The notes beneath the pieces are model-generated. The model worked only from the letters and a program-made list of their open reading frames with translations, was not told where the DNA came from and made no database searches. From Luteimonas terrae (GTDB lineage: Bacteria; Pseudomonadota; Gammaproteobacteria; Xanthomonadales; Xanthomonadaceae), in the NCBI RefSeq assembly GCF_004358165.1, contig NZ_SMTG01000004.1:496001-560000 (forward strand): 64,000 nucleotides of DNA. The letters are read 5' to 3'. A program made the translations under genes and the position numbers. Below are positions 14,601 through 42,636 of this stretch, piece after piece (within the stretch, counting starts at the first letter, position 1; every line of letters starts with the position of its first letter).

Positions 14601-14728
14601 CTGGCGACGATGGTCTTGCCTAGCCCTACCTCGTCCGCCACCAGAAAACGGCGGGGGCCACGACTGGTCAGAGTACGAAACGCAGCTTCGATCGTGGCCT
14701 GTTGGAAGGGCTTCGCGCGGATGCTCAC
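11636..14728 (-). CDS. SNF2/SF2-type DEAD-like helicase
   Basis: 1030 residues from GTG 14728; an ATG at 14767 exists, but the GTG makes a 4-base GTGA overlap with the upstream stop, like the previous junction. SF2 motifs are present: I ADEVGLGKT (Lys38), II FDEFQ (about 249), III LLSATPY (about 303), a VTTSIGQEGLDL motif V and QREGRITRF motif VI near residue 900. A long region of unknown fold lies between the two RecA lobes. With the PLD and DUF6361 genes it forms one translational unit. The combination resembles DISARM (helicase plus PLD) but lacks its DUF1998 protein. ATP-dependent translocase activity is expected from the family; a defence role is inferred. Confidence 0.85.
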   Translation of the reverse strand: MSIRAKPFQQATIEAAFRTLTSRGPRRFLVADEVGLGKTIVASGVIQKMTRSRRKGPLCVLYVCSNLTIARQNMDGLLSFLGKKEREEAIGTIDRPSLMPTREMPTHPGVRVFQLTPDTAIPTRKGQRRDGRMEERALALVLIRQIAPNVSTAGLFRAFKRNAGVSFKGWVKHYQQMGAERKGLGGGEYRARFRDALREVLGITEGGHLPPRLNQFLQERNYQDLVAAARTALAIAALRDIAPDLVIFDEFQRFRDLTDEGDEPEADSDGNESADIRERAAARVMDAIRGDAGSDAPALLLLSATPYTPYRSRQERRVAGAAEDQHSSDFFSLVSFLAADGMVADQALQLFSKLREELQKGELRSERAVDLRGELTALLTPLMSRTERTSVRLNSCDGHSSSKLIESELLPSDLRQFQDMHDCLSEQDRDWIVPLWQSVPLPMQTLGNRYTAWRRKRRMPAQVELSKQVRDEYKKPAHWPHPRLRALIATTSGVSMAMPWSRPSLPWWPLARNWKFDGSAADDDKLLVFSRFRAVPTALSGLLSYTAEQRMVPRLRDGETSYETVPRHWLKPSSALLELFHPSPLLASIEPLQAPIGKLAVMQTGVRRQLRERLAELGVKLVAKRKGHRKSWELLPALELRAGLWATSSKAWLDTSDELGDDSGGLLTEALHKWDEAAVRECTEISARELDELVALAMEAPGVALLRALQRHWPEATDHMSDVVSTAWNGLRNYLNRPLFVSALTSRKVSRYPAAIRLAVIEGGFESVLDEHFWYLSQKPASTLSEVLAELRAALRLRDPNVTFHEPADDAEAAECDQSFRVRCHVAIPLTEGRIHGKREIGSDEPLRPDEVRRAFNSPFWPKVLVTTSIGQEGLDLHPWCSALAHWDLATGPVALEQREGRITRFAGLAVRRAIASRMQLRLMMNVGTGSPWKQLAQLAESELGDDSGLAPWWTVDGARCKNYVFSAFTSEQRIGLDALNQERALYRLVLGMPDQNDLMNVLKIKLEQGEASEVGAACLDLCAYNRERG

Positions 14729-16560: not shown

Positions 16561-17765
16561 CGCTCGTTGAGATCGTTCAACAGCATGCGCACTTTTCCCC
16601 AACGGTAGTGCAGCGTCTCCGCAAGCGGATGCGGCATACGCGGCGTGTTCCACTCGGCACGTCGCTTCCGTGCACCCAAAGTCGCGCCGAGACGGGCCCG
16701 ATCGCGCTTCCGCTCCACCTCGGCGCGGCGATACACCTCATGGAGGTAGGCGCAATCCGACCGACCGGATCGCAGCCAGTCCTGCGTCGCACCAAGCACC
16801 TGAACCAACGCTTCCGGCTGACCGGGGACACATGCCCGCAACGCATCCAATTCCAGTGCCTGTGCGATAGCGCCATGCTCATCGCGCATGACCGACAAGT
16901 GGTCCCGGTAGGTGCGGCTACGCTGGCCGGTGTCGCTGTTCTTGGCCTGTTCGACCAGGGCGGCGTAGACCGCACGCCCGATGCCTGCGAGCGCCGAGGC
17001 TTGCTCGGCCAGCATCAAGACGTTCCGGTCCTCAGTATCGGCCACTCGCCTGATGGCGTTGTGCCAAGGAGAATCGATGCTTGCCACCGAGGTTCGGTGT
17101 TCTGTAAGCCGACCCAACAGGCTTTGCTGTCCGTCGGCGCGCTGGACCGCCATGAGCTGCCTTCGAAAGAAGGCTCGCTCCGTCGCTGTGAGTGCGAATC
17201 CGATAGGCTTGTCTGGGTGTCCCAGCTCAGCAGGCGGGGACGGAAGCGTGACGAAGGGTTGCGCATCCAACGACCACGCGGTCTCTCCATCGATCGACAA
17301 TTGACGCATCGATCCGCCGGCCTGCATAGACTCGATCTGCCGTAAGACTTGGATGCGTGTCTGCGGCGCCTGCCCCGGTCTGGCATGCAGGATCTTCCAG
17401 CGTGATAGCGCGCTCCAGTAGATCATCGCTGCGGTCTGGCTGGGCTCGCGCTGAAGGCTGCCACCGATGATGCCATCCTGCCCTCTCCCTGCCGGATCCT
17501 TCCACTGCACCAGCTGCCGGGTAAGCGTCAGCGCGTCCTTACGAAATCGATCAGACCGACCGCCTGACTGCATCATCAGCCACGGGATAAACAACGCGTA
17601 GCGGAGCCTCGTGTGAAGTACAGACGTTCCTGGGAACAACCGGTCAGCAATTCCCTGATGCAGCGCCAAGAAGCCAATTTCATCACGCACGCCCTGCTGA
17701 TCATTGCGCAGCGCTCTCTCGGCGCTGGCAACCGCTTGGCGCGACAACAGTATCCAGCCGATCAC
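16557..17765 (-). CDS. DUF6361 family protein
   Basis: 402 residues from GTG 17765, giving the family-type start MIGWILLSR; CGGAAG lies about eight bases upstream. Conserved landmarks are the DEIGFLALHQGIADRLFPGTS stretch and TRLRYALFIPWLM near residues 45-80. DUF6361 proteins have no established activity but occur next to PLD-like and helicase genes. It is first in the overlapping DUF6361-PLD-helicase unit. A longer start upstream is possible but lacks a ribosome binding site and the family N-terminus. Confidence 0.78.
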   Translation of the reverse strand: MIGWILLSRQAVASAERALRNDQQGVRDEIGFLALHQGIADRLFPGTSVLHTRLRYALFIPWLMMQSGGRSDRFRKDALTLTRQLVQWKDPAGRGQDGIIGGSLQREPSQTAAMIYWSALSRWKILHARPGQAPQTRIQVLRQIESMQAGGSMRQLSIDGETAWSLDAQPFVTLPSPPAELGHPDKPIGFALTATERAFFRRQLMAVQRADGQQSLLGRLTEHRTSVASIDSPWHNAIRRVADTEDRNVLMLAEQASALAGIGRAVYAALVEQAKNSDTGQRSRTYRDHLSVMRDEHGAIAQALELDALRACVPGQPEALVQVLGATQDWLRSGRSDCAYLHEVYRRAEVERKRDRARLGATLGARKRRAEWNTPRMPHPLAETLHYRWGKVRMLLNDLNER

Positions 17766-20653: not shown

Positions 20654-21330
20654 TTAGGCAGCAGTTCCCCGTCCGCTCCGCCTCACTGCGCTTCATTAAG
20701 CTCGGCCGTTAGGATTCATGGGAAGGTTGCGCAAAGAAAGATTGAGCTTGTCCGACACGCCTGCGGCTTTGACAGCGGCGACGACTCAGACGCAGCACGG
20801 CATTCCGATGCTGGGTCAAGTAGATCCACTGGTAGTTTTTTTTCGTGACTCGCCAGTCCGGAGCCGCCGGCCAATTGCCCGGGACTCTGCTTTTCAGCCA
20901 GATGCCCTTCGATGCGCGCGAAGTTCTGCGGCCGACTGCTTTCGTATGCGGGTAGCCATTGACTCAGCCGCCGCGAATGCCATGAGTCACAACTGCCGTT
21001 AGTTGCGTTACGGCGCTGCTCACTACTGACCGTGATCGGTGCGCGTTCGAGCGGAGTAACAGAACGTCCGCATTGGTTGAGAAACCGCTCCCCTACCCTC
21101 GATAAATTTCCCTAATGCCTACCCTGCTCTGTCCCGAGTCACCACTCCTGAGCTGGTCCTGATTCGCTTGATCCCGAACGCGCTGCACTCTCGGCATCCA
21201 CGTGCTCAATCGCGTGCCACTTCTTCCGAGTCCCGACCGCTGCGTCGCTCTGAAATCCCGGGCTTGCCGAGATCGCCTTCCATGCCTTACATCTGATGAG
21301 TCCAACCACATTGCTATGGAAAGCGACGCC
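20654..21330. other. Intergenic region, decayed
   Basis: 677 bases without a supported gene. The first 60 bases end in AAGCTCGGCCGTTAGG, resembling the 3' half of an integron attC site, but no matching 5' half is visible. A 94-codon frame at 20718-21002 looks like random GC-rich sequence. The promoter for the ribonucleotide reductase gene must be here; no cobalamin riboswitch features were recognised. Confidence 0.4.
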
Positions 21331-22974
21331 ATGAGTCGACCGAATTGCCTCGTTCCCGATCTGCCTGTCTGGGCGTTGGACAATCCGTACCTGCAGGCGC
21401 TGAAGCCCCGCTTCTTCGCGCGCCCGGCGGAGGGGGTGTGGGGCGAAATCCCCAAGCGGGTGCAGCGTCTTTTCGTCGAAGTTGAGCGCCGGTACACGTC
21501 GACGGACCGGGCGGAGGCACTGGGTGAGACACTGCGAGCACTCGTCCACGATGGCGCGTTCTTCCCTAATAGCCCGGCGATGATGAACAGCGAACAGGAG
21601 AGCCGGGTCAACCTGTTTGCCTGCCACGTTCTTTCGCCACCGATTGAAACGGGGGGATTCGAGGTCGCTCGGACGATTCACGACGGGTGCGGCGGTATCG
21701 GCTACGACCTGACTGCACTCGAGGACCCCGTGTCCCTGACCGAGGTAATCGAGCGGGAGACTACCGCGCTCAATCCGGGTAGAAAGCGTAAGGCGCACAG
21801 CGCCGTGACGGTGGACGCCCTCCATCCCCGCTGCGATGCGTTCATCGAGCTGGCCGGACGCCTATCAGTCACGCATACCAACGTCGAGCTGACCGATGCG
21901 TTCTTCGCGTTGCTCGCGGCAGGCGATGACGAAGCAGTGCGACGGTGGGGCACGATCTGCGACTCCATCGCGGCGACAGGCACCCCGTCGATCGCCTTCG
22001 CTGGCCAGAAGGCAGCGCGGTCGCCCAATGGCGAGCGCCTGGTGCTCAATCTCTGCGGCGAGACGCCACTCCGCGAGAACGAATCGTCGCTCGTGGGCAC
22101 GCTCAACCTCGCCCGGTTCGTCTCAAGCGGCCACTTTGACGTCGCGCGCTTCATTCGCGCCGCGAGAATCGGCGTCCGGTGCCTCGACAACATGCATGAC
22201 CTACAGCGGCATGCCTCTCCCATAGTCGCGGAGCGTTGCGCGCAGGGCCGCAAGATCGGTCTCGGCGTCATGGGGTATGCCGATGCGCTGCTGGAGCTGG
22301 GTATCCGGTACGGCTCGGAGGATGCTCTGGCTTTTGCGCGTACCGTCATGGGACGGCTGTCCCAGGTCGCCTACGCGGAGAGCGAGGCGCTCGCGCGCGA
22401 GCGCGGCTCCTGCGACCCCTCGCTGCAAGGCGGGGATGGGCGGCCGCCTCGGCGCAATGCCGCGCTCTTGGCGATCGCCGCCAATGGCACGCTGGGCCTG
22501 CTCGCGAACGTGACCGGAGGAATGGAGCCGATGTTCGGTCTATACACCCGCCAGATGGTCGAGGACGCCGAAGCGACTTGCCAGCTCCAACCCAGCCTCG
22601 CGCGGGCGCTGCGTGCAGCCGGCTTCGATGAGGACGGCGTCGTGCGCGTCGCGGAGCTGCTGGCCGCTGGCATGAGCCTGGGTGACATCGATGGTGTACC
22701 CGAGAGAATCCGAAACACCGCGGTCTGTGCGCACGAACTCGCATTCCAAGCCCATATCCGGACCCAAGCCACGTTCCAGGCATTCATGGATGGCGGCATC
22801 TCAAAGACGATCAACCTGCCCCGGTCCAGCACGGCCGCGGACGTTGCGACTGCCGTCCTGACGGCGCGTGATGAGGGGTGCATCGGGATTTCGCTGTACC
22901 GGGATGGCAGCGTCGTGGGCCAGCCGTCGCAGGCGCTCGGCGCCGATCAGGCCGTAGGTGCCGTGACCGCATGA
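21331..22974 (+). CDS. Class II (B12-dependent) ribonucleotide reductase-like protein
   Basis: 547 residues from ATG 21331 (GGAAAG about eight bases upstream; ATG 21316 also possible). NrdJ-family landmarks occur in order: FFPNSPAMMN, FACHVLS (redox Cys), GCGGIGYDL, LNLCGETPL (thiyl Cys and Glu), GVMGYADALLEL, RRNAALLAIAANGT, GGMEPMFG and SKTINLP followed by GCIGISLYRDGS. Family members reduce ribonucleotides using adenosylcobalamin. It is shorter than most NrdJ, and no cysteine follows GISLYRDGS, so the usual C-terminal reducing Cys pair seems missing. It overlaps a kinase gene as ATGA. It may be phage-derived. Confidence 0.85.
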   Translation: MSRPNCLVPDLPVWALDNPYLQALKPRFFARPAEGVWGEIPKRVQRLFVEVERRYTSTDRAEALGETLRALVHDGAFFPNSPAMMNSEQESRVNLFACHVLSPPIETGGFEVARTIHDGCGGIGYDLTALEDPVSLTEVIERETTALNPGRKRKAHSAVTVDALHPRCDAFIELAGRLSVTHTNVELTDAFFALLAAGDDEAVRRWGTICDSIAATGTPSIAFAGQKAARSPNGERLVLNLCGETPLRENESSLVGTLNLARFVSSGHFDVARFIRAARIGVRCLDNMHDLQRHASPIVAERCAQGRKIGLGVMGYADALLELGIRYGSEDALAFARTVMGRLSQVAYAESEALARERGSCDPSLQGGDGRPPRRNAALLAIAANGTLGLLANVTGGMEPMFGLYTRQMVEDAEATCQLQPSLARALRAAGFDEDGVVRVAELLAAGMSLGDIDGVPERIRNTAVCAHELAFQAHIRTQATFQAFMDGGISKTINLPRSSTAADVATAVLTARDEGCIGISLYRDGSVVGQPSQALGADQAVGAVTA

Positions 22975-23600
22975 CGGTCTCGAGCGTGCGCACTGCGACG
23001 TTTATCTGCTTCGACGGCCCAAAGGGCGTTGGCAAAACCACGCTTCTCAACGCGGTGGCATCTGCACTGCGCGACGGCGGACGCAGATGCGTCACGTGGA
23101 CGGAGAAGGACTTGGATCCGTACCGCGAGGCGACCCGCCAGTCGCTTCAGGCGTTTCGCGCCTCGCCCAGCCCGGCCGTCGAGCTCGCCATCTGCGAGCA
23201 ACTGGCACGTGGAAGGGCCTGGATCTCTCGAGAGGTCTTGGCGAGCGCCGCCGATAGCAGCGTGGTGCTGATGGACCGATGGTATCCATCGGACGCGGCC
23301 TTCAGGCGAATGGTTCCGTTCGAGGACGTGCTGCGGATCAATGCGCAGCTCGGCGTACGGCGTCCTGACGTCGTCGTGGCCGCCACCTGCCCGCCTGAGG
23401 TGTCATGGGACCGGGCGCATGTGCGCACGCGTGGACTCGACAGCCTGGTGGTCACCAACTTCGACGAGCACGCCGCAACGACCGGCGCCTTCGATCGGGC
23501 GGCAGGAGTCCACGGATGGCTGCGCTGCGATACTCGTCGCTCCGTGGAGCAGTGTGCTGCCGATGTCCTCGCCGGGCTGGGTGGATTCCGCGAGACCTGA
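22971..23600 (+). CDS. Thymidylate kinase-like P-loop protein
   Basis: 209 residues from ATG 22971, overlapping the reductase stop by 4 bases. Walker A is FDGPKGVGKTTLL (about 14-26). DRWYPSDAAFR resembles the DRY...S..AY motif of dTMP kinases, and TCPPEVSWDRAHVRTRG may form the lid. The family phosphorylates dTMP to dTDP. Coupled to a ribonucleotide reductase, it points to dNTP supply or sensing. Substrate not certain; it could be another deoxynucleoside monophosphate. Confidence 0.78.
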   Translation: MTVSSVRTATFICFDGPKGVGKTTLLNAVASALRDGGRRCVTWTEKDLDPYREATRQSLQAFRASPSPAVELAICEQLARGRAWISREVLASAADSSVVLMDRWYPSDAAFRRMVPFEDVLRINAQLGVRRPDVVVAATCPPEVSWDRAHVRTRGLDSLVVTNFDEHAATTGAFDRAAGVHGWLRCDTRRSVEQCAADVLAGLGGFRET

Positions 23601-24034
23601 GGTTCGCTCGATGGCGGCGAGCGCTTGGGGCGCTCTAATGTCCAGCGAGGGTTCCGCGGCCACGATGCCGGCAGGCTGTGGCGCCCTATCCCGTGGTGCG
23701 CGGAAGTGCTAGGACGCGGTCCCTCCAAGAGGGCGATGGCCGTGCCGTCGAGGCACGCGGCATTGAGAACGACTGCGTCGCGGCAGAGCCCGCACGGCGG
23801 CGCGAGGTCGGATGACAGTCCGTACTAAACGTGGCGCCGTACGGCGGTCGCGAACGGCGGGTATTTGTAGGCGGTCGCCTTGTATCGACCCACGCTGCGT
23901 CAGACCTATTGGGGAATAGATGTGCACTGAAGTGTGCCGATTGTAGGATAGGTTCTACTTAAGTGGGCCAGAATCGGTTTGTAGAAGCGGCGCTAGCGGC
24001 GATAGTGGCTCCACCCAAGCCAAGCGCGACCGCG
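23601..24034. other. Intergenic region upstream of XRE regulator
   Basis: 434 bases, GC-rich at first and AT-rich over the last 100. TGTAGGATAGGTTCTAC near 23943-23959 is an imperfect dyad and may be the XRE operator. An upstream GTG at 23963 could be the regulator's start. No other gene was seen. Confidence 0.4.
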
Positions 24035-24655
24035 ATGACCAAAGCCCGCTCCCCCCTACAGACCGAAGTCGCAGCCTCCTTCGTCCGGACGGTCCTGCGG
24101 ATCAGTAATGCCCGCCCCATCGTTCGGGGTGAGGGGCGACGCCGGGTCAGCCAACGTGACATGGCGCGGGCTCTGGGGCCGGGCAAGCTCTCCCGGTCCG
24201 GCATCGCAAAGCTGATGACCGACGAAGCCGAAGCGAACCCAACCTTGAACACGATCTGCCAGATCGCCGAGGTGCTCGGCGTCCCACCGGCCTATCTGCT
24301 CATGCGAGATGTCGACTGGGAATTGCTCGCCCAAGCGATCGATGACTACGAGGCCCACGCGAAAAAGCCGACGGTGATGCAGCTCGCGGCGCGTATCGCA
24401 CAGGACCCGGACCACAGCGCGTTCAACAGTGTTGTGCACGGCCGTCAGGTTGCCGAGACGGTGCTCGAGATCTCAGAGCCCGCGAGCGGCGATCCGCTCA
24501 TTCGCGAGCCCTACGACGAGCGCATGGATCACATCGGCGCCGCTTGCGCGGCGCCGCCCCTACACCGGATTCACCTCAATCGCCCCGGCCTCGTGGCCCT
24601 GCTTCTCACCATCTGTGCACGCATGGGCAGTGCCTTCCGAACCACTTCTCCCTGA
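24035..24655 (+). CDS. XRE-family HTH regulator
   Basis: 206 residues from ATG 24035, or 230 from GTG 23963; neither has a clear ribosome binding site. The HTH reads VSQRDMARALGPGKLSRSGIAKLMTDEAEANPTLNTICQIAEVLGVPPAYLL, with a longer than usual turn. C-terminal region unassigned. It ends 25 bases before the YaaW-like gene on the same strand, so it probably leads and controls that operon. Confidence 0.75.
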   Translation: MTKARSPLQTEVAASFVRTVLRISNARPIVRGEGRRRVSQRDMARALGPGKLSRSGIAKLMTDEAEANPTLNTICQIAEVLGVPPAYLLMRDVDWELLAQAIDDYEAHAKKPTVMQLAARIAQDPDHSAFNSVVHGRQVAETVLEISEPASGDPLIREPYDERMDHIGAACAAPPLHRIHLNRPGLVALLLTICARMGSAFRTTSP

Positions 24656-24680
24656 TCACATCAACACGAGTGACCCGACC

Positions 24681-25559
24681 ATGGATGCCCATCTGATTCA
24701 GCACACCACCGATCTCAATCTACTGCTGCACGAGGCACTCCCGGATGACCTCGACATCCTGGTGGACTACGTGACCGACCGCGGGAAAGGCCGCCTCGCC
24801 TTGGATGGAACCATCTGCAAGGTCCTCGTCCGGGCGAAGCAGACCCAGAGTTACGGGCCGAACGAACGCGCGGCTCTGGCGAACGAAATCCTTGAGTTCG
24901 GCGGCAACACGCTCGGCAATGCATTCCGCCGCGTGCGCTCCAGCCTGCCCTTCATCTCCGACAGCGGGGGCGCTGCTGCCTCCGGCACGGTGCCCTACGA
25001 CGAGATCGTCGGAGACGTCGCGAGCCACCTCGGCGTCAAGGTCTCGAAGGGCTCGCCGATCGCCATTGTCGAGGAAGGGATCCTGCGCAAGATGATGGGC
25101 GATGCGGTGCAGAAGATGACCGATGCGCAGCGCCACGAGGTGGAGGTCGCCCTAGGCTTGGGTACCTCTGCGGTATCCCAAGCGGCATTGATCGTGCTGC
25201 TGCAGACCGGGCGCATGGGCGGGTTCGCCACTTACAAGATGGCGGCGATGGTGGCCAACGCCTCGGCACGGGCCCTGCTCGGACGGGGTCTGCCGCTCGC
25301 CGTGAACTCCGCGCTCAGTCGCACGGTCGGCGTCGCGCTGGGACCGATCGGCTGGGCCCTCATGGCGGCCTGGACGTTGGCCGACTTGTCCAGCCCGGCC
25401 TATCGCGTGACTGTGCCCTGCGTGGTCCACATCGCCTACCTGCGAACCCGGATGCTGGCGGAGGCGAAGTACATCGAGTGTCCGGCCTGCCACGACATGA
25501 TCGAACGCACGGCGCGCTTCTGCTCCAGCTGCGGTGCCGCCCAAGGGGGGAACGCCTGA
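24681..25559 (+). CDS. YaaW-family protein with C-terminal zinc ribbon
   Basis: 292 residues. Matches the E. coli YaaW family (about 237 residues) in the N-terminal LDILVDYVTDRGKGRL segment, the EFGGNTLGNAFR motif (about 73-84) and the AYRVTVPCVVHIAYLR signature (about 240-255). Residues about 170-235 are hydrophobic and may contact membrane. An added C-terminal zinc ribbon, CPACHDMIERTARFCSSCG, is not in YaaW itself. YaaW has no established biochemical role. The stop overlaps the next start, and position between a regulator and a nuclease-like membrane protein suggests a sensor or immunity role (inference). Confidence 0.8.
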   Translation: MDAHLIQHTTDLNLLLHEALPDDLDILVDYVTDRGKGRLALDGTICKVLVRAKQTQSYGPNERAALANEILEFGGNTLGNAFRRVRSSLPFISDSGGAAASGTVPYDEIVGDVASHLGVKVSKGSPIAIVEEGILRKMMGDAVQKMTDAQRHEVEVALGLGTSAVSQAALIVLLQTGRMGGFATYKMAAMVANASARALLGRGLPLAVNSALSRTVGVALGPIGWALMAAWTLADLSSPAYRVTVPCVVHIAYLRTRMLAEAKYIECPACHDMIERTARFCSSCGAAQGGNA

Positions 25560-25696
25560 TGTTCCCGTTGCCGTCTGACTACCTCAAGACTTTTGTCATC
25601 GCGTTCGCCGCCGGCGCCGCTGCAACCGTCGCGAGCGCGGCCTTCGGTCGGCTCATGTACACCCTCGGGCGAAACGCCGGATCCCCGGCCCGATAG
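25559..25696 (+). CDS. 45-residue single-pass membrane peptide
   Basis: ATG 25559 overlaps the TGA of the YaaW-like gene by one base (TGATG), so it is translationally coupled. The sequence has one helix, TFVIAFAAGAAATVASAAFG, with Ala/Gly small-residue packing, then a short positive tail (GRNAGSPAR). No known family. The tight coupling and convincing membrane helix support it despite its size. Confidence 0.68.
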   Translation: MFPLPSDYLKTFVIAFAAGAAATVASAAFGRLMYTLGRNAGSPAR

Positions 25697-25776
25697 CCCA
25701 TCGGCGGCGTAGGTCGCCTTCCCACACCCACTACCCGCAACGCCGGTCGACTTCCCGACCGGTGAAAGGAGAGCTC

Positions 25777-27276
25777 ATGTCCAACGAATTCAAAGACGCC
25801 CGCAACGACGCCGGCCGAGATGCCAAGATCATGCAGGCCCCGCCTGTCACATCCCGGATCCACGACGCGATCATCGAGCCGGCGGACGACGCGCGGGCGA
25901 CCCTCCAGAGCGTCGCTGGCATCTCGGCTTCGACGTTCGCCCAGACGATCGAACGCACACAGATCAGCCGCTACCACACGGCGAACGGCTTTGGATTTGC
26001 TGCCGAGGATGCGCTTAATCTTAATGACCGTCTGGCTGGGAGGACAGTCATAGCAGCGGGGCAGAATGGGGTGCGCAATGGCGCCGATCGGATCGTCGAC
26101 GGTATCGCGTACCAGACCAAGTACTGCCGGAATGCACGTGCCACGGTGCGCTCACTGTTCGATCCGAAGACGGCGCTCTACCGGTACGGGGACATGAAGG
26201 CCGAAGTCCCACCGGAACAGTATGAACTCGCGGTTCGTCTCATGGAACGCCGCATCGCGCGTGGCCAAGTGCCAGGAGTGACCGATCCAAAGGACGCGGC
26301 GAACCTGATCAAAGCGGGTTCAATCACCCGGGCGCAGGCTGTCAAGATCGCTCGCGCAGGCACCATCGAAGGCCTGACCTATGACGCCAAGCTCAACGTG
26401 CTCAATGCAAGTTTCACGTGCACTCTTACGTTTCTGGTCAGCCTCGCGCAGCGCAAATGGGGTGGCGCCTCTGCACGGGAGTCTTTTGAAGGCGCGGTGC
26501 GTGATGCTTTGGCCTCCGGTCTGCTTTGTATGGGAACGGTCGTGGGGTCCGCGCAGTTGATGCGGACCCAGGGGGCGCGCGTACTGCGCGTCGGCATGCA
26601 CGATGGCGTCAAGGTTGCATGCCGCACCGAGGTCGGACGAAAGGTGGTCCATGCCGTAGCGAAGGCGAGCTTGAGGAAGGCGGTCTACGGCGGTGCTGCG
26701 ATCTCCCATGTGGCCAAGCTCGCGCGCTCGAACACCATCGCCAACGGTGTCACGACGGTCGCAATGTCGGTGCCCGATCTCTACCGAGCGACGATCAAGA
26801 AGAACATGTCGTGGGCACAGGTGGGGAAGAACGCTGTCATCAACGGGGCCGGCGTCGCCGGAGGTTCTCTAGGATGGTGGGGCGGCGCGACCGTGGGCTC
26901 GCTCGTCGGTACTTCGCTGGGACCGGTCGGAACGGCCGTGGGATTCGTCACAGGGGGCCTTATGGGCGCATTTGGCGTGGGCAGCGGCTCCTCATGGCTG
27001 GCATCAAAAGCGATGGATGGCGTCGTCGAGGACGATGCGGCCGAGGTGCTAGAGCGTATGCCGGAATGGCTCACGCCCCTAGTCCACGACTACCTGCTGA
27101 CCTCGCCCGAACTGGATGAGCTGTTGAAGACCGTGCGCCAGCATTGCACGCCCGAGTTCCTGCGCAGGCTCTTTGGCGGCCGCGCCGACGCGGCGCGACT
27201 GGTCTACGAGGAGTTCGAACCCGCCTGCTTTGCCATCGTAAGAAAGCGCGGCACCGTCACGCTTCGTGCAGTGTGA
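25777..27276 (+). CDS. Putative PD-(D/E)xK-like and glycine-zipper membrane protein
   Basis: 499 residues from ATG 25777, with AAAGGAGAG five bases upstream. Residues 100-125 read NGADRIVDGIAYQTKYC: D104/D108 and Q113-x-K115 match a D...QxK restriction-type nuclease core. The following part, with VPPEQYELAVRLM and AGTIEGLTYDA, belongs to a conserved uncharacterised family I have seen only as hypothetical proteins. Residues about 350-405 are a Gly-rich hydrophobic zipper (GGSLGWWGGATVGSLVG, GGLMGAFGVG) able to insert in a membrane. Preceded by the YaaW-like and 45-residue membrane genes. The nuclease assignment is motif-based only. Confidence 0.75.
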   Translation: MSNEFKDARNDAGRDAKIMQAPPVTSRIHDAIIEPADDARATLQSVAGISASTFAQTIERTQISRYHTANGFGFAAEDALNLNDRLAGRTVIAAGQNGVRNGADRIVDGIAYQTKYCRNARATVRSLFDPKTALYRYGDMKAEVPPEQYELAVRLMERRIARGQVPGVTDPKDAANLIKAGSITRAQAVKIARAGTIEGLTYDAKLNVLNASFTCTLTFLVSLAQRKWGGASARESFEGAVRDALASGLLCMGTVVGSAQLMRTQGARVLRVGMHDGVKVACRTEVGRKVVHAVAKASLRKAVYGGAAISHVAKLARSNTIANGVTTVAMSVPDLYRATIKKNMSWAQVGKNAVINGAGVAGGSLGWWGGATVGSLVGTSLGPVGTAVGFVTGGLMGAFGVGSGSSWLASKAMDGVVEDDAAEVLERMPEWLTPLVHDYLLTSPELDELLKTVRQHCTPEFLRRLFGGRADAARLVYEEFEPACFAIVRKRGTVTLRAV

Positions 27277-27304
27277 CGCGCGGCCGGCCCGCACTCCAAA
27301 AGCG

Positions 27305-27334
27305 GACCGACGCGGGCGGAGGCCAGCGTCGGTC
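27305..27334. terminator. Inverted repeat between convergent genes
   Basis: GACCGACGC (27305-27313) and GCGTCGGTC (27326-27334) form a perfect 9-bp stem with a 12-base loop between two converging genes. There is no T-run, so it is a weak intrinsic terminator or a transcript-stabilising hairpin. Confidence 0.5.
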
Positions 27335-28535
27335 ATGCGTATACGGCAGAGACCCCCAGCTCAGGGATCATGATCCGATTATCGATGCGCTCGTGCTTGA
27401 AGATACGGCGCTCGCTGACGGCGCGCTTGGTTCGATAGTCGATGAAGTTGTCGTTGCTGACCACGTAATCGTGCTCGTTGGAGGCAAGGTCGAGCACGAC
27501 CTCATCGGCCGCACCGTTGACGATGTGAACGATGGCATCACTGCCGATCGACTCACGCAACTTGGCTTCGTTGAACCCGCGCTTTCGGATCGATCCATCG
27601 AAAACGAAGATTGTCTTGGCCTGACGATCGAGGGAGCGGACCACAGCCTGAAGTGGCGCGACGCCAATGAAAGCCCCGCGACTGAAGCACAGGTTCATTC
27701 CGTCGAACACAAGCTTTTCGATCCGGCGGGAATGCCGCGTTGAGATTTGTTTCAACCGGTTTTTCAGCTTCTGGATGTCGCGAACTGAAGCTTCGATATC
27801 CCGTTGGAATACCTTGATCGCTTCGGCGGGACGGCTGTAGCCCAACTCGAGGCGGGCGCGGTCGTGGAGAAGGCGACGTTCGCGGCCGGAGCCCGCCAGT
27901 TCCAGTTCATTCTCGAGCTTCACCGCCTGCCTGGACTTGGCGTACGCAGCAGCATGACGGCGCTCCGCTGCCTCAAGGTCCTTCAGATACGGCCTTAGTT
28001 CCTCATCGAGGCAGCGGCACTGGGCTTCTAGTGCAGTGCACTCGGCCTCAAGGGCGTGGATGCGATCCGTCACGGCCTGCAAGCGCGCCTCCGCCGACAC
28101 CGGATCGAAATCCGCGCGCCATACAAGTGCGCTGTTGACCTGCTCCGAGAACGCCTTTGCCTTTTCGAGTGAGGCCTGTGCGATCTTGATTGCTTCGGTC
28201 AACTCGTCATGCGACCTGATCGCCGCGTCACGCCGCTGGAGAATGAGCTTGCGCTCGGCAGAGAACCAATGCAATGGGTTAAAACCGAACGAGGCCTGCT
28301 GTACGAGATTGGCGACGATCCTGTCCGCTTCCGTCAAGCGCGTTTGAAGATCCTTGAGTCGCTTCGTCCGTCCTGGCAGCACGGTAGCCGCCGCCTCGGC
28401 TTGCTTGCGCACATGTGCGACGTCGAACCGCTTGTAGCGCTGGCACTGCTGCAGAAGCGCATCGGCTTCCGCCCGCGCTTCCCCCAGTTCCACGATCAAT
28501 TTATCGAGCTTCACCCGATGCGGGTTGTAGTGCAT
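27333..28535 (-). CDS. Coiled-coil protein with C-terminal NYN/PIN-like RNase domain
   Basis: 400 residues; start ATG 28535 has AGGGGG about seven bases upstream. Residues 10-270 are almost continuous coiled coil. From about 272 a compact alpha/beta domain begins: KLVFDGMN (D278), FVFDGS (D313), ADEVVLDLAS (D344) and VVSNDNFIDYR (D362). These four spaced acidic residues are the metal-binding set of Zc3h12a/NYN-type PIN-like ribonucleases. The coiled coil probably drives oligomerisation or target sensing. It converges on the YaaW-like operon, with stops 57 bases apart. A toxin or defence RNase is plausible but inferred. Confidence 0.8.
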   Translation of the reverse strand: MHYNPHRVKLDKLIVELGEARAEADALLQQCQRYKRFDVAHVRKQAEAAATVLPGRTKRLKDLQTRLTEADRIVANLVQQASFGFNPLHWFSAERKLILQRRDAAIRSHDELTEAIKIAQASLEKAKAFSEQVNSALVWRADFDPVSAEARLQAVTDRIHALEAECTALEAQCRCLDEELRPYLKDLEAAERRHAAAYAKSRQAVKLENELELAGSGRERRLLHDRARLELGYSRPAEAIKVFQRDIEASVRDIQKLKNRLKQISTRHSRRIEKLVFDGMNLCFSRGAFIGVAPLQAVVRSLDRQAKTIFVFDGSIRKRGFNEAKLRESIGSDAIVHIVNGAADEVVLDLASNEHDYVVSNDNFIDYRTKRAVSERRIFKHERIDNRIMIPELGVSAVYA

Positions 28536-29080
28536 TAAGGGCCCCCTATCCGTCTTACTTCTAGCCGAAGCGTAATGCGCCGCTGTCGATCACGGAAGGA
28601 CGACGCATCCACGCCATTGCGCTCAAGGCGTGGTTAAACAAGTCAGGCTGACGCACAGTGCACCATTCGCCCGAATGGCCCACTCGATTCGACAGGTTCT
28701 CGCCCGACCTTCCGGCATCACGAGCGAATCGACCTCGCTAGCCACGTGTCGAACGGCTCGTGTCGCCTCCCGACGAGGCGGCTGTCATCGCCGCTCCTGC
28801 GCTCACAGCAGAAGATCTCAGAGACATCCGGAGCTTGATTGCCTAATGGCGCTTTACGGTGCGTTGGACTTCGCTAGGCGGGAGGTTCATTTGCCTGAGA
28901 GCCGGTGCGTCGAAGCCGCAGAGTAACGCCATCCCCACCTTCACCCACGCTGCCCAGCCGGACTGAGGGCATTGGATTCTGATTATTGTTGGATCCTTGG
29001 GCCTGGCCGGGGCGTTAGCGTCCACCGCGGAGTTCGTGCGAGCACGCTACAACGCGGCCGATTGCGTGTTCTGGGCGCAG
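28536..29080. other. Intergenic region, no gene recognised
   Basis: 545 bases. Short frames on both strands have no protein-like pattern. The first part must hold the NYN gene promoter. The rest looks like decayed island DNA. Confidence 0.45.
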
Positions 29081-30034
29081 TTATCCCGCGTCGGTAGATT
29101 CAGGAAGGTCAAAGGTAAGCGTTGTGCGCATCGTTCCGGATTTCCTGGGACAACCTCCAACCAGGCCGGGATCAACCTTCCATTTCCTCGCTGCTTCAGC
29201 AGCCGCACGATCGAGATCTCGGTTCCGACTAGAACCTACGACAGCCACACCACTCACTTGACCGTCGCCGTCGTACTCGAGTTCCACCTCGACCTTACCC
29301 GAAACGCCGGCTCTAGCCGCTGCTGGTGGATAGCGCGGCGACACCACTTCTACAATTTGGGGCTCGCGGTCAGGCTGCCCGAGCGTGGCTGTGCAGCGAG
29401 ACGCAGCTTCTGCCTCTTCTTCAGCTAAGAGTTCAGCGCGTGCAGCATCTTCCGCAGCGGCATTGATCGACTCGATACGCGCTCGGTGTTCTCGTTGAGC
29501 TTCATGGTTCGACGAAGCGATTTGGTTAGCGGAGTTCTGACCAGGTACTTGACTTCCAGTGACGGGTGATCGAGCGGCAGTTGTGTCGTCTCCCGTCCGA
29601 TCATCAGATTCGTCCGTAGCTGTTGCGGGATACGTGGATGCAGACGATCCGGAACCGTCGGTCGTTACGGCTTGCTGATTGCGACAAGCCGCATACACGC
29701 TTTCTGAGAAAAGCTTGGCATTGTTCATTTCTGGAAAATCAACGCGAGCCTTCCTGACGAGACCGGGATCTGCAAAGGCAGCCTCAACAATGCGCCGCCC
29801 GTACTCGGCTGGAATGGGTCCAGAACTGGTTGCAGACTGGACTTGTGCCAACAGTTCGATTCTTTGGACGCCTTCCATACGTGCCATCGCAACGTCCCAC
29901 GCCATCCCCTTAACCCCGACGCAGTCGATGGGCTGGCTCGCACCTGGCGAGCTGCCTCCTTGGCCGCAAGACGATAGAAGCAACGCAGTACAGAACATCA
30001 TAACAACAGGCAACCAGCATCCAACCACCTTCAT
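29081..30034 (-). CDS. Lipoprotein with TonB C-terminal-like domain
   Basis: 317 residues from ATG 30034, with GGGGA eight bases upstream; an ATG at 30064 is less well supported. Signal peptide with lipobox LLLSSC, cysteine near residue 23. The middle is Ser/Thr-rich then charged helical (RAELLAEEEAEAASR). The C-terminal 90 residues match the TonB_C fold: VSPRYPPAAARAGVSGKVEVE, then WKVDPG. No TonB membrane anchor, ExbB or ExbD nearby, so it is unlikely to be a canonical energy transducer. It may bind envelope partners. Confidence 0.8.
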   Translation of the reverse strand: MKVVGCWLPVVMMFCTALLLSSCGQGGSSPGASQPIDCVGVKGMAWDVAMARMEGVQRIELLAQVQSATSSGPIPAEYGRRIVEAAFADPGLVRKARVDFPEMNNAKLFSESVYAACRNQQAVTTDGSGSSASTYPATATDESDDRTGDDTTAARSPVTGSQVPGQNSANQIASSNHEAQREHRARIESINAAAEDAARAELLAEEEAEAASRCTATLGQPDREPQIVEVVSPRYPPAAARAGVSGKVEVELEYDGDGQVSGVAVVGSSRNRDLDRAAAEAARKWKVDPGLVGGCPRKSGTMRTTLTFDLPESTDAG

Positions 30035-30204
30035 TCGTCGAGTCCCCAATCTCATAATGATCATTCTAGAAAAAGCATGCCAAGGCTTCCCACGCCTTGA
30101 CAGCGTGATGGTATAGCAGCTCTCGAAGCACGAGCATCCCTATGAAGTTGGCGGCCTTGTAATATTCTTCACGACATTACGGCACGTGCGTTGCACTTCC
30201 ATAA

Positions 30205-31383
30205 ATGCGCAAGAATGGGCGCAACACACATACTCGCTTGCCGCTGCTCATCGCCATGCTTTTCGCACTCCACATTGAAGTGGCCCACAAGCTGGTGGGC
30301 ATGGCCCCCGCGGCGTTCTTCGAGTACGCGACCGGGCTGAACCACATGCTCTATCGCCGGGGCCGCGGCTACGCAGCCCTCATGGCCAATCGTGAGCAAG
30401 TCGAAGCGCATTCCGACTCCTTACTGCTGCGCATGCTCCAGAAGCGCGGCGTGCCCGATGCCGAGTTCCGCGGGTTCAAGGAAAACATCCCCCAGGGGCA
30501 TTCGGCACTCATGGTCTACGGGATGGGATTGCTCGACGCGCACAGCACGTCCGCCACCCGCGAGCTGGTCGCCATGTTCGATGCGTCAGACGAGCGGCTC
30601 TGCCAGCTGGATAACACGGACGTGCCTGGCTTCCTCGACGAAATCGGGCCAGAGTCCGAGCTGGGGCCTGCCTACTGCGCCCCGTTGGCGGTGGGTGGCA
30701 TCCGAGGCCCTACGTTGGAGCTGTCCGCGCCTGAGCGGGCCGCCTTCGATCTCGCTTTGAACCGTCGCGCCCACATGGCGCTGTCGTTCTTGGCGGCTGT
30801 GGACCATGAAATCGGGCATTGGATTAGCCGCACGAAGCTTGCCGATGCCATGGGGGGCCTCCCCAGATTTGCGGTGCTGTTGGTACCACCCGGCCCGCCC
30901 GATCGGCGTCGCCATACGCCGGCCGATCCGGCCGCGCGTCTCGTCGATTTCATCGGCGCGGTGGGCCACTTCGCGCGCGAAGGTCGCTGGCCTGAGCGCC
31001 CGATCTCGATCGCGGACATGGGTGCCCAGGCAGATCGCTCAGGGATACGGGGTGGTGAGAGCGACCGGTTCATTCGAGCCCTCAGAAGTGGCAAGGACCC
31101 ACTGACTCGAAAGTCGTTCAGGACCCTGGTCCACACCCAACTTTGGACACCAGAAGCCAAGGCATCCGACCTCGACGATCAAGCAGACCTGCTTGAAACC
31201 TACTTGGTGGCCACTCTCCTGTTGAACCTGCTCCTGCCAGATCACCCAACCGCCGTGGGCCACCTGGACCGCATGGGCTGGCGGGAGGCCTACCTGGGAT
31301 GGTGGGCGCGGCATCAACACCGCTACCCACCCCCGGCCCCGTCGACAGGGTCCCTGCCCCCAGCTTGGCTGATCGACCCTTAG
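30205..31383 (+). CDS. Hypothetical protein with HEIGH motif
   Basis: 392 residues; no family recognised. AVDHEIGHWIS (HEIGH at 201-205) matches the HExxH zinc-metallopeptidase pattern, but there is no clear third ligand or signal peptide. DLLETYLVATLLLNLLLP near residue 335 could be a membrane or buried helix. It lacks a clear ribosome binding site. Its stop abuts the stop of the 54-residue gene on the other strand. Confidence 0.68.
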   Translation: MRKNGRNTHTRLPLLIAMLFALHIEVAHKLVGMAPAAFFEYATGLNHMLYRRGRGYAALMANREQVEAHSDSLLLRMLQKRGVPDAEFRGFKENIPQGHSALMVYGMGLLDAHSTSATRELVAMFDASDERLCQLDNTDVPGFLDEIGPESELGPAYCAPLAVGGIRGPTLELSAPERAAFDLALNRRAHMALSFLAAVDHEIGHWISRTKLADAMGGLPRFAVLLVPPGPPDRRRHTPADPAARLVDFIGAVGHFAREGRWPERPISIADMGAQADRSGIRGGESDRFIRALRSGKDPLTRKSFRTLVHTQLWTPEAKASDLDDQADLLETYLVATLLLNLLLPDHPTAVGHLDRMGWREAYLGWWARHQHRYPPPAPSTGSLPPAWLIDP

Positions 31384-31548
31384 TTAGCGCTTCGCAGGAG
31401 CGTTGCTGCGGTTGCCGCCCGATGGCACGCCGGTCTTGGTCGACGGCCAGCCCCCCGCATTCCCCTGCCCCCGAGCACCACCGGCAGTCGAGCCACCCTT
31501 CGAGCCACCACCGGCCTTGCCAGCCGAGCCGCTATTACCCTTTGCCAT
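31384..31548 (-). CDS. 54-residue Gly/Ser/Lys-rich small protein
   Basis: Encodes MAKGNSGSAGKAGGGSKGG followed by NAGGWPSTKTGVPSGGNRSN. It resembles small disordered basic proteins with a WPSTTGNPSGGGR-type tail common in Proteobacteria and their islands. Start ATG 31548 has GAGGA seven bases upstream. It is basic and glycine-rich, so nucleic-acid binding is conceivable, but no function is established. It lies downstream of the H-NS-like gene on the same strand. Confidence 0.72.
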   Translation of the reverse strand: MAKGNSGSAGKAGGGSKGGSTAGGARGQGNAGGWPSTKTGVPSGGNRSNAPAKR

Positions 31549-31660
31549 GTTCGTGTCCTCGTAAGCCCCACATGGGGCACGGAAAGCTTGAACGTTGGCG
31601 CGCGCCGCATAAGCCCCAAAAATTCACAGGTGGGGCATAGCGCTGGTGCTGGGAAAGGAC

Positions 31661-32080
31661 TTAGGCAGCGCCCGCTTTGTAGACGGTCCGCTTCCCCACG
31701 GCGGCCTGCTTCTTGGCCGTGGGCTTGGCCAGACCTGGGATGAGGAAGTCGGCCGCCTGGTGGCCGCGTTTCACCTTCGCGGCCAGCCATCGGGGTTGGC
31801 TCCCTCGACCCGACCAGGTATTGCGGCGGTTCTCGGGGTCGCGGTACTTCGCAGCCACTTTCGGCAGCTTTCGCGCGGCGCGCCTCTTCGGCCTGGCCGG
31901 CTCAGGTGCGGTGCCCAGCAGATCTCCGATCGCGTAGCCCTGCGACGCTGCGAAACGTGTGAGGTCGCGCCGAACATCTGCGATGGGGCGGCGTTTGCTG
32001 ACCACCTTCAATCGTTGTTCGGCGATTTTGATCAGCTGCGTCAGCTCAGCCAGGGAAAAGTGATCAAGTGCGAACTTCAT
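31661..32080 (-). CDS. H-NS-family nucleoid-associated protein
   Basis: 139 residues from ATG 32080 (GAGG eight bases upstream; ATG 32086 sits too close to it). Short N-terminal oligomerisation helix, basic linker, then the H-NS C-terminal DNA-binding signature YRDPENRRNTWSGRGSQPRW. A basic lysine/alanine tail follows. H-NS proteins on islands commonly silence AT-rich foreign genes, which would suit this region. It sits 22 bases downstream of the helicase gene stop and is probably cotranscribed. Confidence 0.88.
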   Translation of the reverse strand: MKFALDHFSLAELTQLIKIAEQRLKVVSKRRPIADVRRDLTRFAASQGYAIGDLLGTAPEPARPKRRAARKLPKVAAKYRDPENRRNTWSGRGSQPRWLAAKVKRGHQAADFLIPGLAKPTAKKQAAVGKRTVYKAGAA

Positions 32081-32102
32081 GGTCATAACCTCAGGCTGAT
32101 CT

Positions 32103-34811
32103 TCAATGACGAACCGTCAGGTTCGCGGTGGCGCGGCATCCATCACGGTAGCGCGAACAGCCGAGAAACGGACCGTTCGATCCATTCCGCTGCTGGAGGT
32201 TGCCCTTCTTGCAGATGGGGCACCGATCACCTGCCGACACTGGCGTGGTGATGCGTTGGGATGTGGCGGGCTGGGTTCGCCGTGTAGCCCCATCCTCAAT
32301 GTTGCGTTTGTAGTCGCAGGCCGGGAAGCGACTGCAGGACAGAAAGGGGCCGTATCGCCCATCCCGCTGCGTCAGGACGCCAGCGCTACATTTCGGGCAG
32401 GCCTCCAATGCCTCTCCGTCGATGGGCTGAATCTCCAGCCCATTCTTCTTGCCTAGCTCCACCAGGAATTGCGAGGGCTGGCATAGCACCGTGTAGAAGC
32501 GCACCTGCTTGCGCGCGCGCGTCATGGCCACGTAGAACAGCCGGCGTTCTTCGGCGAAGGGATACGGATCGGGCACGGGCATGGCCAGCTGCAGCGCCGG
32601 GTCGTCCTGGATCTGACTGGGAAAGCCCATCGTGCCTTGTACGACGTTGAGAACGAACACGTACTCGGCTTCAAGGCCCTTGGATCCGTGCGCGGTCCGA
32701 TATTCGATCGACAGGCGCTCAGCGAACTGGCGCTGCCACGCCTTCAGGCCGGCAGGCTCGTCGTTGCGATATCGCCCCAACAGCATCACGGTCATGCGCG
32801 TGCCCTTGGCGGGCGTAAGCTTTCCATCCACTAGCAGCTCATGCATGTGAGCCAGCTGCTTTTCAACGTACGGCGCGATGTTCGCTTGATCCGCGAACCC
32901 ATAGGCCAGCATGGGCGTCTTAGTCAGCGGATTGGTCGTCTTGACCTTCTTTTTGATCTGGGCCGGGTTGGCTTGAACGAACTGACTGGACACGTCGCAC
33001 AGGCTTTGCGGACACCGGAAAGTTGTGGTGAGCGACAAGCGTGTGGCGTGCTCGAACGTCTTCTCGAACTCGGTCATCACCGTGATATCTGACCCAGCGA
33101 AACGATTGATGCCCTGCCAGTCGTCGCCCACCACACACAAATGCGCGGGGGGACTGGCCTGGCCCGACAGCGCTTTCAACAGTCGGATGCGGGCGCGCGA
33201 GCTGTCTTGGAACTCGTCGGCCAGGATCAAGGTGTAGGGGCTCTTGTAGGCCCCGGACTCCACGTGGCCGGCCGCGAGGATCAACATGTCCTCGAAGTCG
33301 ATGAAGCCGCCGCTCTTGAGGCGCCTTTCCCACTCCGCGGCTATGCGCTCGTAGATGGCCAGGTACATCCGCAGGCGTGCGCCGAACCCATCTTCTGATT
33401 GTTCGGCAAGCGCGTCGACCAGGTTCCGGTGGGTCAGCCCGTTGTTCTTCACGTGCTGCTGGAACACACGGAACGATCGGGCCAGATCCTGCTCGTGGAC
33501 CGGCGCAAGACCCGTGGCCTCCTTGTTCGGATCGAAGACCGGCTGGATGCCCGCCTTGATCAGCGCTTGCTCTAGCGCCGGGATCGCCTCGCCGGTCTTC
33601 AGCCCATGCGAGGTGGTCTCGAAAAGCGCCGTCCCCTTCTCTTTGTGGATTTTCCGCTTCCACCTCACACCCTCCAGGTAGTCCCCGAAATGCTTAGGGG
33701 CCTGCCCTTTTTCGTTCAGTGCGAAATGCTCGTGGTAGAGCTTGCCTTCGGGGTAGTAGAAGTCGGGAAAGTACTGCCGATGGTGGGTGGTTGCGGTGTC
33801 GTGTTCGTAGGGTTGCTCGTACACATAGTTCACACCGTTGTAGAACAGCCAGTCGGCGATCGTGCGCTCTTCCTTGCTCTTGACCACTTCGCCGCGTGCT
33901 GTCCGAAAACCTCGAACGCCGTTGCCGTAGGCATCGGGCACGTCCGGCTCGTTCCACTTTCCGACATCGCGCGCGTAGACCACGCGGAACAGATCCCAGT
34001 CTCGCTTGAAAGTCTTGTCCTGCTCGGACAGCGTCCGAATGATGTCGCCAACCTCGCGGACATCCCCACCTGGATTACTGGGATCTACCCAGGGCGCAAG
34101 CGCCGGCTTCTTACCGGTGGCCTTGGCGATGACATCGATGCCGAACGCATGGAAGGTGTTCGAGCGCACCTTCTCGACCTGAGGCACGCCCTTCAACTGC
34201 TGCGCGATCCGCTGGCCGACTTCTTCTGCCGTGGCCTTGTTGAATGCCAGCAGCAGAATTTGATCGGGCGTGGCCAGACCTTGGTGGAGGGCGTAGCCCG
34301 TCTTGGCCACCATCGTCGACGTTTTGCCGGAGCCAGCCGCGGCCACCACCATCACCGCGTCATCCATGCAGATACACGCATGGATCTGTTCGTCGGTCAG
34401 TGGGTTCTTCTCGACCTTCGCGAAGAAGTCGCCGCGCTTGAGCCTCACCAGAATGGTGTGCTGCGTATTCGCCTTGTCGAACTGGTTGCGCAGTGTCGTC
34501 AGAGGCGAGTCATCGCCTACCGCCTGCTTCCAGCTTTTCGTTTGGTGCTTGGGCGCGGGGTTGGACGCCAGGAAGCGGCTGGCTGTGCCCTTAGGGATCC
34601 ATCGCACAGAACCTGTGCCGGCGTATCGCGTGGCGGCGTCGATCCACTCGCGGTACGCCGCGTCGAACGCTGCCTGCCAGCGGGCCGCATTCGCTCGAGC
34701 CTCTTCGGCCACCTTCGGATCGACCGGCGGCGTGGGCGGTGCTTTCGGGGTTTTGTTGCCAAAAATGGTCCCAATGAGCCAGAGCAGCCCAATGACGATC
34801 AGAAACTCCAT
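32103..34811 (-). CDS. UvrD/HelIV-like helicase with PD-(D/E)xK-like insertion and zinc fingers
   Basis: 902 residues. Order: N-terminal membrane helix (3-18), helicase 1A with Walker A AAAGSGKT (157-164), an inserted segment at about 305-365 with KSKEERTIADWLF, PDF (349-351) and EHF resembling a restriction-type nuclease, then ADEFQDSS, VVGDDWQGINRFAG, the HGSKGLEAEYVF motif V and MTRARKQVR motif VI. The C-terminus has two topoisomerase-I-type fingers, each starting CPxC and containing GPFL(S/G)CSR. E. coli HelIV (684 residues) lacks the fingers. A membrane-tethered helicase-nuclease acting on invading DNA is plausible but inferred. Confidence 0.88.
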   Translation of the reverse strand: MEFLIVIGLLWLIGTIFGNKTPKAPPTPPVDPKVAEEARANAARWQAAFDAAYREWIDAATRYAGTGSVRWIPKGTASRFLASNPAPKHQTKSWKQAVGDDSPLTTLRNQFDKANTQHTILVRLKRGDFFAKVEKNPLTDEQIHACICMDDAVMVVAAAGSGKTSTMVAKTGYALHQGLATPDQILLLAFNKATAEEVGQRIAQQLKGVPQVEKVRSNTFHAFGIDVIAKATGKKPALAPWVDPSNPGGDVREVGDIIRTLSEQDKTFKRDWDLFRVVYARDVGKWNEPDVPDAYGNGVRGFRTARGEVVKSKEERTIADWLFYNGVNYVYEQPYEHDTATTHHRQYFPDFYYPEGKLYHEHFALNEKGQAPKHFGDYLEGVRWKRKIHKEKGTALFETTSHGLKTGEAIPALEQALIKAGIQPVFDPNKEATGLAPVHEQDLARSFRVFQQHVKNNGLTHRNLVDALAEQSEDGFGARLRMYLAIYERIAAEWERRLKSGGFIDFEDMLILAAGHVESGAYKSPYTLILADEFQDSSRARIRLLKALSGQASPPAHLCVVGDDWQGINRFAGSDITVMTEFEKTFEHATRLSLTTTFRCPQSLCDVSSQFVQANPAQIKKKVKTTNPLTKTPMLAYGFADQANIAPYVEKQLAHMHELLVDGKLTPAKGTRMTVMLLGRYRNDEPAGLKAWQRQFAERLSIEYRTAHGSKGLEAEYVFVLNVVQGTMGFPSQIQDDPALQLAMPVPDPYPFAEERRLFYVAMTRARKQVRFYTVLCQPSQFLVELGKKNGLEIQPIDGEALEACPKCSAGVLTQRDGRYGPFLSCSRFPACDYKRNIEDGATRRTQPATSQRITTPVSAGDRCPICKKGNLQQRNGSNGPFLGCSRYRDGCRATANLTVRH

Positions 34812-35926: not shown

Positions 35927-36147
35927 TGCTGCATCTGCTTGTCAGGCACGGCCCATCCCGCGTCATCAGGCGACGCAAGCAGATCAGTGAAGTGCTCTCG
36001 CAGCTCAAGGTCCGCATCGTCTGACCACACCTGGTCGACCAGATCGCCAGCAATGCGATCCCACCCTGCCCAGAATTCGGTGTGGGTGATGCTGTGATCA
36101 GTGGTCCTCAGGTACTCGGACAGTTGGGCGAGTCGTGGATCAGTCAT
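35923..36147 (-). CDS. Small acidic hypothetical protein, AAA_13 operon
   Basis: 74 residues, acidic and helical (GDLVDQVWSDDADLELREHFTDLL). Start ATG 36147 lies 8 bases inside the end of the ATPase gene. Small acidic proteins next to toxin-like ATPases are sometimes inhibitors; that reading is speculative here. Confidence 0.65.
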   Translation of the reverse strand: MTDPRLAQLSEYLRTTDHSITHTEFWAGWDRIAGDLVDQVWSDDADLELREHFTDLLASPDDAGWAVPDKQMQQ

Positions 36148-38362: not shown

Positions 38363-38573
38363 GCCCGCTCCCTGCGGGATCATTGTGGATCGGGCCGTGA
38401 GGCCGCTTCCTTGACCGCCCGTAAAACGGCTGGCACTTGTCAAACGACTATAGCGAACAGTCGGCTCTGCTTGACATGGGCTTCGTGGCTTACGGATGCC
38501 CTGGCCAACTGGCGCGGGGCGCTGCTCCCTCCTCTGCACAAGTTGAGAACCCCGCTCCTACAAGGCTCATGGA

Positions 38574-42482: not shown

Positions 42483-42636
42483 AAGTAAATTGATGTGGGA
42501 AGAGACGTTGGGAGCCTCTTAGGCGTCCAGCGACCGCTCTTGTGTCAGGTTCTCAGCACGTTGAGTTTGCGTCCGCTGACAACCTTGATGCCATCTCGAA
42601 TCGGAGGCACCCTTGAGCTACCAGCAGGGGAAGGTC

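Follow-up and report, generated by a model that had tools for sequence, protein, structure and literature searches.

The anti-phage system Juk (jumbo phage killer), composed of JukA and JukB, was reportedly described by Li et al. in Cell in 2025. According to PMC13282480, the early infection vesicle is where JukA senses early phage proteins, and it occurs with diverse effectors, among them JukB, a tetrameric membrane-pore former; PMC12571901 states that silencing of jukA renders strain PA14 susceptible to phage PhiKZ, and PMC13282480 and PMC12931631 place Juk in the small group of systems described as acting against nucleus-forming phages. We have examined the operon around a JukA homologue in a 64,000-nt stretch of the Luteimonas terrae genome (contig NZ_SMTG01000004.1, positions 496001-560000; hereafter the window), and we put at roughly 0.6 the probability that it is a Juk-type anti-phage operon in which an enzyme arm replaces JukB. 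Its genes for a helix-turn-helix (HTH) regulator, a JukA with a zinc ribbon (JukA-ZnR), a one-helix membrane peptide, an effector with a PD-(D/E)XK-like domain and a glycine zipper, and an NYN-like protein constitute a conserved neighbourhood. Feature coordinates are collected in Table 1, and fetched loci and genomes are denoted by L and G numbers, respectively.

An earlier note on the window had described a YaaW-family protein with an added zinc ribbon, and had known no named defence system of the locus's composition. The ribbon (CPAC...CSSC) is present, although its Zn_Ribbon_1 match is under the Pfam cutoff, and by its profile matches the 292-aa protein is JukA, the sensor of Juk: in addition to PDLC04111 (Table 1) it matched the PADLOC JukA models PDLC04113 (8.4e-47) and PDLC04112 (6.4e-32). 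The statement of novelty thus stands for the full composition and falls for the core. NCBIfam PRK10236 matched the sensor weakly (4.9e-9), and a search of solved structures with its sequence gave a best E of 0.33. We rejected a housekeeping ubiquinol-cytochrome chaperone as the identity of this protein, as PF03981 (4e-4) was just under its cutoff and the JukA model was far stronger. Zinc ribbons are also present in the JukA proteins of L018, L120, L121, L144, L154 and L156. As in Juk, the window has a JukA homologue beside an effector gene in a sensor-effector operon, and JukA likewise adjoins an effector gene in L018, L120, L144, L154 and L155. Unlike Juk, the window has no JukB, adds the ribbon, the peptide, the HTH gene and the NYN-like gene, and encodes an effector with a PD-(D/E)XK-like domain. 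JukB itself was rejected as the identity of the effector, which had no PADLOC match at E<=1; the JukB model PDLC04114 had 0 matches in the whole genome at the same threshold.

The HTH gene precedes the JukA-like gene by 25 bases, the JukA stop (25557-25559) and the peptide ATG (25559-25561) overlap as TGATG, and 80 bases separate the peptide gene from the effector gene, which is preceded by an AGGAG site. The regulator-led operon and the TGATG overlap read by the earlier note are therefore both in the sequence. Its span of 25559..28535 begins at the peptide, so the regulator and the YaaW-like gene lie upstream of it, and the coiled-coil NYN RNase that it placed 57 bases away does converge on the effector gene, with the gap corrected to 56 bases. 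A promoter scan found none, and terminators numbered 4 vs 3.2 by chance.

Searches from the effector side found JukA within the fetched flanks of 3 of 80 genome loci (L018, L057 and L083), each time on the effector's strand, and in 0 of 8 viral effector loci. L018 holds 4 of the window's genes reordered as effector, 43-aa membrane peptide, HTH and JukA with zinc ribbon, and the JukA proteins of the Bacteroidales loci L057 and L083 have no ribbon. That 77 of the 80 effector relatives had no JukA in these flanks weighs against a Juk-type operon as the setting of this effector; on an effector tree of 85 rows, the 4 JukA-linked effectors needed 4 separate changes, no fewer than shuffled labels, so that the effector-JukA pairing arose, or was lost, repeatedly.

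Because it made no use of the effector, the search from the sensor side tested the linkage more sharply. Among 250 genomes of the order, a JukA-ZnR profile found 2 besides the window's own genome, G936 and G1049. G936, from another family of the order (its locus is L144), carries HTH, JukA-ZnR, peptide, effector (HMM match, 4e-101) and NYN genes on one strand, and its JukA stop overlaps the peptide start as ATGA. Identities to the window's proteins were 30, 46, 36, 35 and 31%, respectively, so this is not DNA that was shared recently. With the 5-gene set in G936 and the 4 genes in L018, the gene neighbourhood comparison that the earlier note had proposed revealed a conserved association. In G1049 a ribbonless JukA adjoins an apparent GTPase, and there is no effector. 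JukA was found in 8 of 182 genomes of G936's family, G936 included. Of the 7 others, 2 are similar to the window in gene content: L154 combines HTH and JukA-ZnR with a peptide and an HNH-like gene, and in L155 the HTH is accompanied by a ribbonless JukA with a lysine-rich tail, a peptide and an NYN protein with its own glycine-rich stretch. The remaining 5, L156-L160, showed neither effector, NYN nor such a peptide by these searches. HTH homologues stand beside JukA in L018, L144, L154 and L155. A phylum sample had JukA in 9 of 398 genomes, and G815 (L120) has PDC-M09A, PDC-M09B, a 54-aa membrane peptide and JukA-ZnR together, with no HTH in its gene list, no homology search for HTH having been made there. 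PDC-M09B occurs in 2 other genomes of the phylum (L132, L133) with no JukA adjoining, and on a Klebsiella plasmid (L134) with no JukA named among the neighbours. The JukA rates of 1/150, 3/369, 9/398 and 3/250 each include the window's own genome. In viral_contigs, 600 pattern stretches were inspected for JukA and none was confirmed. The HNH calls in L154 and in the PDC-M40B of L108 were made by eye, with no profile, as were those of the L145 GTPase, the L124-L126 hydrolase and the glycine-rich stretch of L155.

The effector belongs to a widespread family of 81 sequences outside Pfam. PD-(D/E)XK active sites follow the pattern E/D...D...(D/E/Q)xK, which E77, D104, Q113 and K115 of the effector fit; these 4 residues and E143 were invariant across 79 aligned domains (79 of 81 family rows, 2 having been dropped for a short domain). 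The model of the domain had a pTM of 0.82, and its structure matches resembled PD-(D/E)XK proteins with modest scores. From the alignment and the model, we regard this as a putative PD-(D/E)XK-like nuclease domain; the D...QxK motif and glycine zipper that the earlier note saw joined in one protein are both present, and the structure prediction that it had proposed came out, at these modest scores, on the side of a nuclease-like domain. Pfam gave nothing convincing for the domain (best E 0.0042, SecD_1st, in 37 of 79 members), whole-length Foldseek searches of PDB and BFVD gave nothing below 0.001, a sequence search of solved structures gave a best E of 0.041, and a search in phages found 1 record.

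The zipper raises the question of whether the effector is instead a JukB-like pore former, whose zipper would break the phage vesicle or the cell membrane while the PD-(D/E)XK-like domain only bound nucleic acid or protein. JukB makes tetrameric pores according to PMC13282480, the zipper segment has 10 GxxxG starts, a number reached by 20 of 5000 shuffles, and 40 of the 81 family members match LeoB, in the zipper region in those members examined. Yet none of 79 sequences departs from the E, D, Q and K of the putative active site, and the effectors swapped in at related loci likewise look like enzymes (HNH-like, NYN); we consider a pore former unlikely.

Three described proteins resemble the effector in part. 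PDC-M09B has the same E..D..QxK domain (hhalign 88%, E 3.1e-6), and its C-terminal half is rich in glycine but of another family; its partner is PDC-M09A, and no full-length PDC-M09B match was found for the window's effector, the nuclease domain alone being shared, at the profile level. K-12 YeeR of the E. coli CP4-44 prophage shares an identical stretch of 507 residues, the nuclease motif included, with an 838-aa E. coli relative of the effector in L007; YeeR differs from the window's effector in an N-terminal membrane part, and the K-12 protein, of 510 aa, is without the zipper part. No JukA is named among the neighbours of K-12 yeeR. The coordinates of this comparison are L007 3777-6293 and L109 10780-12312. 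BnzA of Bunzi matches 20 of the 81 family members, but in the 2 members examined the match covered only an added N-terminal stretch and the window's protein had no match, and BnzA was rejected as its identity. Bacillota relatives in L036, L047 and L085 carry N-terminal additions, either BnzA-like or TerD (L085, 4e-48), which are possibly other sensors.

For the membrane peptide, we screened 30 JukA loci for open reading frames (ORFs) of 28-80 aa with one helix, within 1 kb of JukA, with GTG starts allowed and a Kyte-Doolittle (KD) value of 1.6; this filter had been loosened after L154 and L155 were seen and was then applied to all 30 loci. One-helix ORFs were found at 6 of 6 loci of a subgroup (window, L018, L120, L144, L154, L155) and at 4 of 24 others (L057, L127, L159, L160), where 3 of the 4 look like chance hits; those of L159 and L160 are weak. 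An earlier count had given 4 of 5 JukA loci with the QxK effector and 0 of 16 others, ORFs with no Shine-Dalgarno match having been dropped in L121 and L107 but kept in L057. The window's peptide resembled its L018 and L144 counterparts more closely than any of 2000 shuffles did in each comparison (in L144 a long antisense ORF overlaps the peptide ORF), and the peptides of L120, L154 and L155 resemble these 3 in size and type only. JukA trees had 16 rows at first and then 19, the latter leaving out 11 of the 30. In the 19-row tree the 6 subgroup rows formed one branch (100/99) with L011, L106 and L156, which are without such a peptide.

The peptide could also suggest a toxin-antitoxin module, with the effector as toxin, the peptide as its neutralizer, and JukA and HTH as regulators: the peptide gene is coupled to JukA by a TGATG/ATGA overlap and adjoins the effector gene, and many effector relatives occur without JukA. 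We think this improbable. The peptide stands with HNH-like and NYN enzymes too, and ATG-started peptides at KD >=1.7, a threshold chosen by hand from the hits, were beside the effector in 4 of 91 JukA-less loci, 2 of them identical; it is therefore not a general antidote of the effector family.

The protein encoded by the convergent gene matched RNase_Zc3h12a with E=0.011 and 15.9 bits, below the Pfam gathering cutoff of 23, and is therefore called NYN-like only. Among 101 genomes only the window's own had a match to it at E 1e-8; such relatives were also present on 19 plasmid records, all but one from Pseudomonas. An interim view of this gene as a passenger was overturned by L144, where the homologue (phmmer 5.9e-54, 31% identity) is co-directional and 63 bases behind the effector gene, and by L155, where an NYN gene follows JukA (26% identity over 140 residues). 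Given the 5-gene set in G936, the NYN-like gene is, as judged by gene order and homology, likely a real part of the operon. In the Geomonas locus L015 (9600-10685), an effector relative is followed by an NYN protein of another kind (RNase_Zc3h12a, 5e-7), without JukA.

Upstream of the HTH gene lie genes for ribonucleotide-reductase-like (RNR-like) and thymidylate-kinase-like proteins. Among the fetched loci, an RNR-like homologue (37%) adjoins the JukA-NYN set in L155 only, where it comes after the NYN gene and is followed by a thymidylate-kinase-like homologue (41%). The pair is thus beside a JukA set in 2 distant genomes (window 21202-23600; L155 1893-4008).

From its PADLOC matches, the window is a defence island: 7 of 10 further ORFs matched, among them ZacC (7e-245), ZacB (1.7e-96), PDC-S06 (2e-209), PDC-M40B, PDC-M40C and PDC-M14A. 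Together with the JukA assignment and the conserved neighbourhood, this setting upholds the locus as a candidate defence operon. The same matches favour 2 or more independent defence genes lying side by side, with the NYN, RNR-like and thymidylate-kinase-like genes as passengers, as do the 2 Pseudomonas-plasmid NYN homologues examined, which have neither JukA nor effector named among their neighbours, and the presence of the RNR-like pair in only one other fetched locus. This explanation is made doubtful by the positions of the NYN genes in L144 and L155. Comparison of 22971-32100 with 40 other genomes of the genus gave short DNA matches only, most at about 31.67-31.95 kb and 5, each under 60 bases, elsewhere in the segment.

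For a Juk-type operon with an enzyme arm, we infer the anti-phage activity, its target, and the roles of the peptide and the ribbon along the following lines. The HTH protein would hold operon expression low. JukA would sense an early step of infection at the cell membrane (for the known JukA the site of detection is the early phage infection vesicle) and with the membrane peptide would recruit the effector to the infected membrane; there the glycine zipper would insert and the nuclease domain would cut ejected phage DNA, with the NYN-like protein as a second arm that may cut RNA. At related loci the enzyme arm appears to have been swapped while JukA, a peptide and in most cases the HTH gene were retained: the enzymes at the JukA/peptide core are PDC-M09B in L120, HNH-like in L154 and NYN with its own zipper in L155. 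More tentatively, the locus may represent a Juk subtype of its own: HTH, JukA-ZnR and peptide would be a sensor-and-docking chassis for exchanged nucleases (PD-(D/E)XK-zipper, PDC-M09B, HNH-like, NYN-zipper), with DNA- and RNA-cutting arms here and possibly a nucleotide-metabolism arm (RNR-like, thymidylate-kinase-like). Nucleus-forming phages hide their DNA from ordinary nucleases, and a JukA-delivered, membrane-inserting nuclease would, if the proposal is true, show how DNA cutting can reach them. The proposal also gives the membrane micropeptide a testable role, and puts E. coli YeeR and a large non-Pfam family in a defence setting.

Table 1. Features of the window (positions counted from its first nucleotide)
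Feature	Position	Strand	Remarks
HTH (Xre/Cro-type) regulator	23963..24655	+	Pfam HTH_3 1.3e-7; likely ATG start 24035
JukA-like sensor (YaaW family), 292 aa, C-terminal zinc ribbon	24681..25559	+	PADLOC JukA PDLC04111 1.3e-50
Four-cysteine zinc ribbon (CPAC...CSSC), C-terminus of JukA-like protein	25479..25535	+	Zn_Ribbon_1 1.6e-4
Single-helix membrane peptide, 45 aa	25559..25696	+	best 19-residue KD mean 1.85
Effector, 499 aa: PD-(D/E)XK-like domain and glycine-zipper helical region	25777..27276	+	81-sequence family; AF2 pLDDT 82
Effector nuclease-like domain, residues 58-206	25948..26394	+	E77/D104/Q113xK115/E143; profile match PDC-M09B
Effector glycine-zipper segment, residues 356-410	26842..27006	+	10 GxxxG starts; model confidence low here
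Coiled-coil and NYN/Zc3h12a-like protein, 400 aa	27333..28535	-	convergent; homologue co-directional in L144
Ribonucleotide-reductase-like protein, possible associated gene	21202..22974	+	Pfam Ribonuc_red_lgC 8e-50
Thymidylate-kinase-like protein, possible associated gene	22971..23600	+	Pfam Thymidylate_kin 1.2e-12
Other defence candidates: PDC-M40C, M40B, ZacC, ZacB, PDC-S06 (AAA_13, PrrC-like), PDC-M14A	8085-16653, 36140-38539, 42613-43632		
UvrD-type helicase	32103-34811	-	GajB-like matches; two matches to topoisomerase-type C4 zinc ribbons

JukA itself varied among the fetched loci. The proteins of L154 and L155 have long lysine/alanine-rich tails, and in 3 genomes of one family (L124, L125, L126) a JukA-like region is fused behind an apparent alpha/beta hydrolase. 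In L011, L106 and L156, JukA has an adjacent or fused partner with a common QKHLADIS motif, and in L156 the zinc ribbon sits at the joint of JukA and this partner. The ribbon-bearing JukA of L121 branches separately in the JukA tree, and a KwaA gene lies near it. In L108 (3836-6646), a long JukA is followed by PDC-M40B, in which we could discern an HNH motif and a hydrophobic C-terminus.
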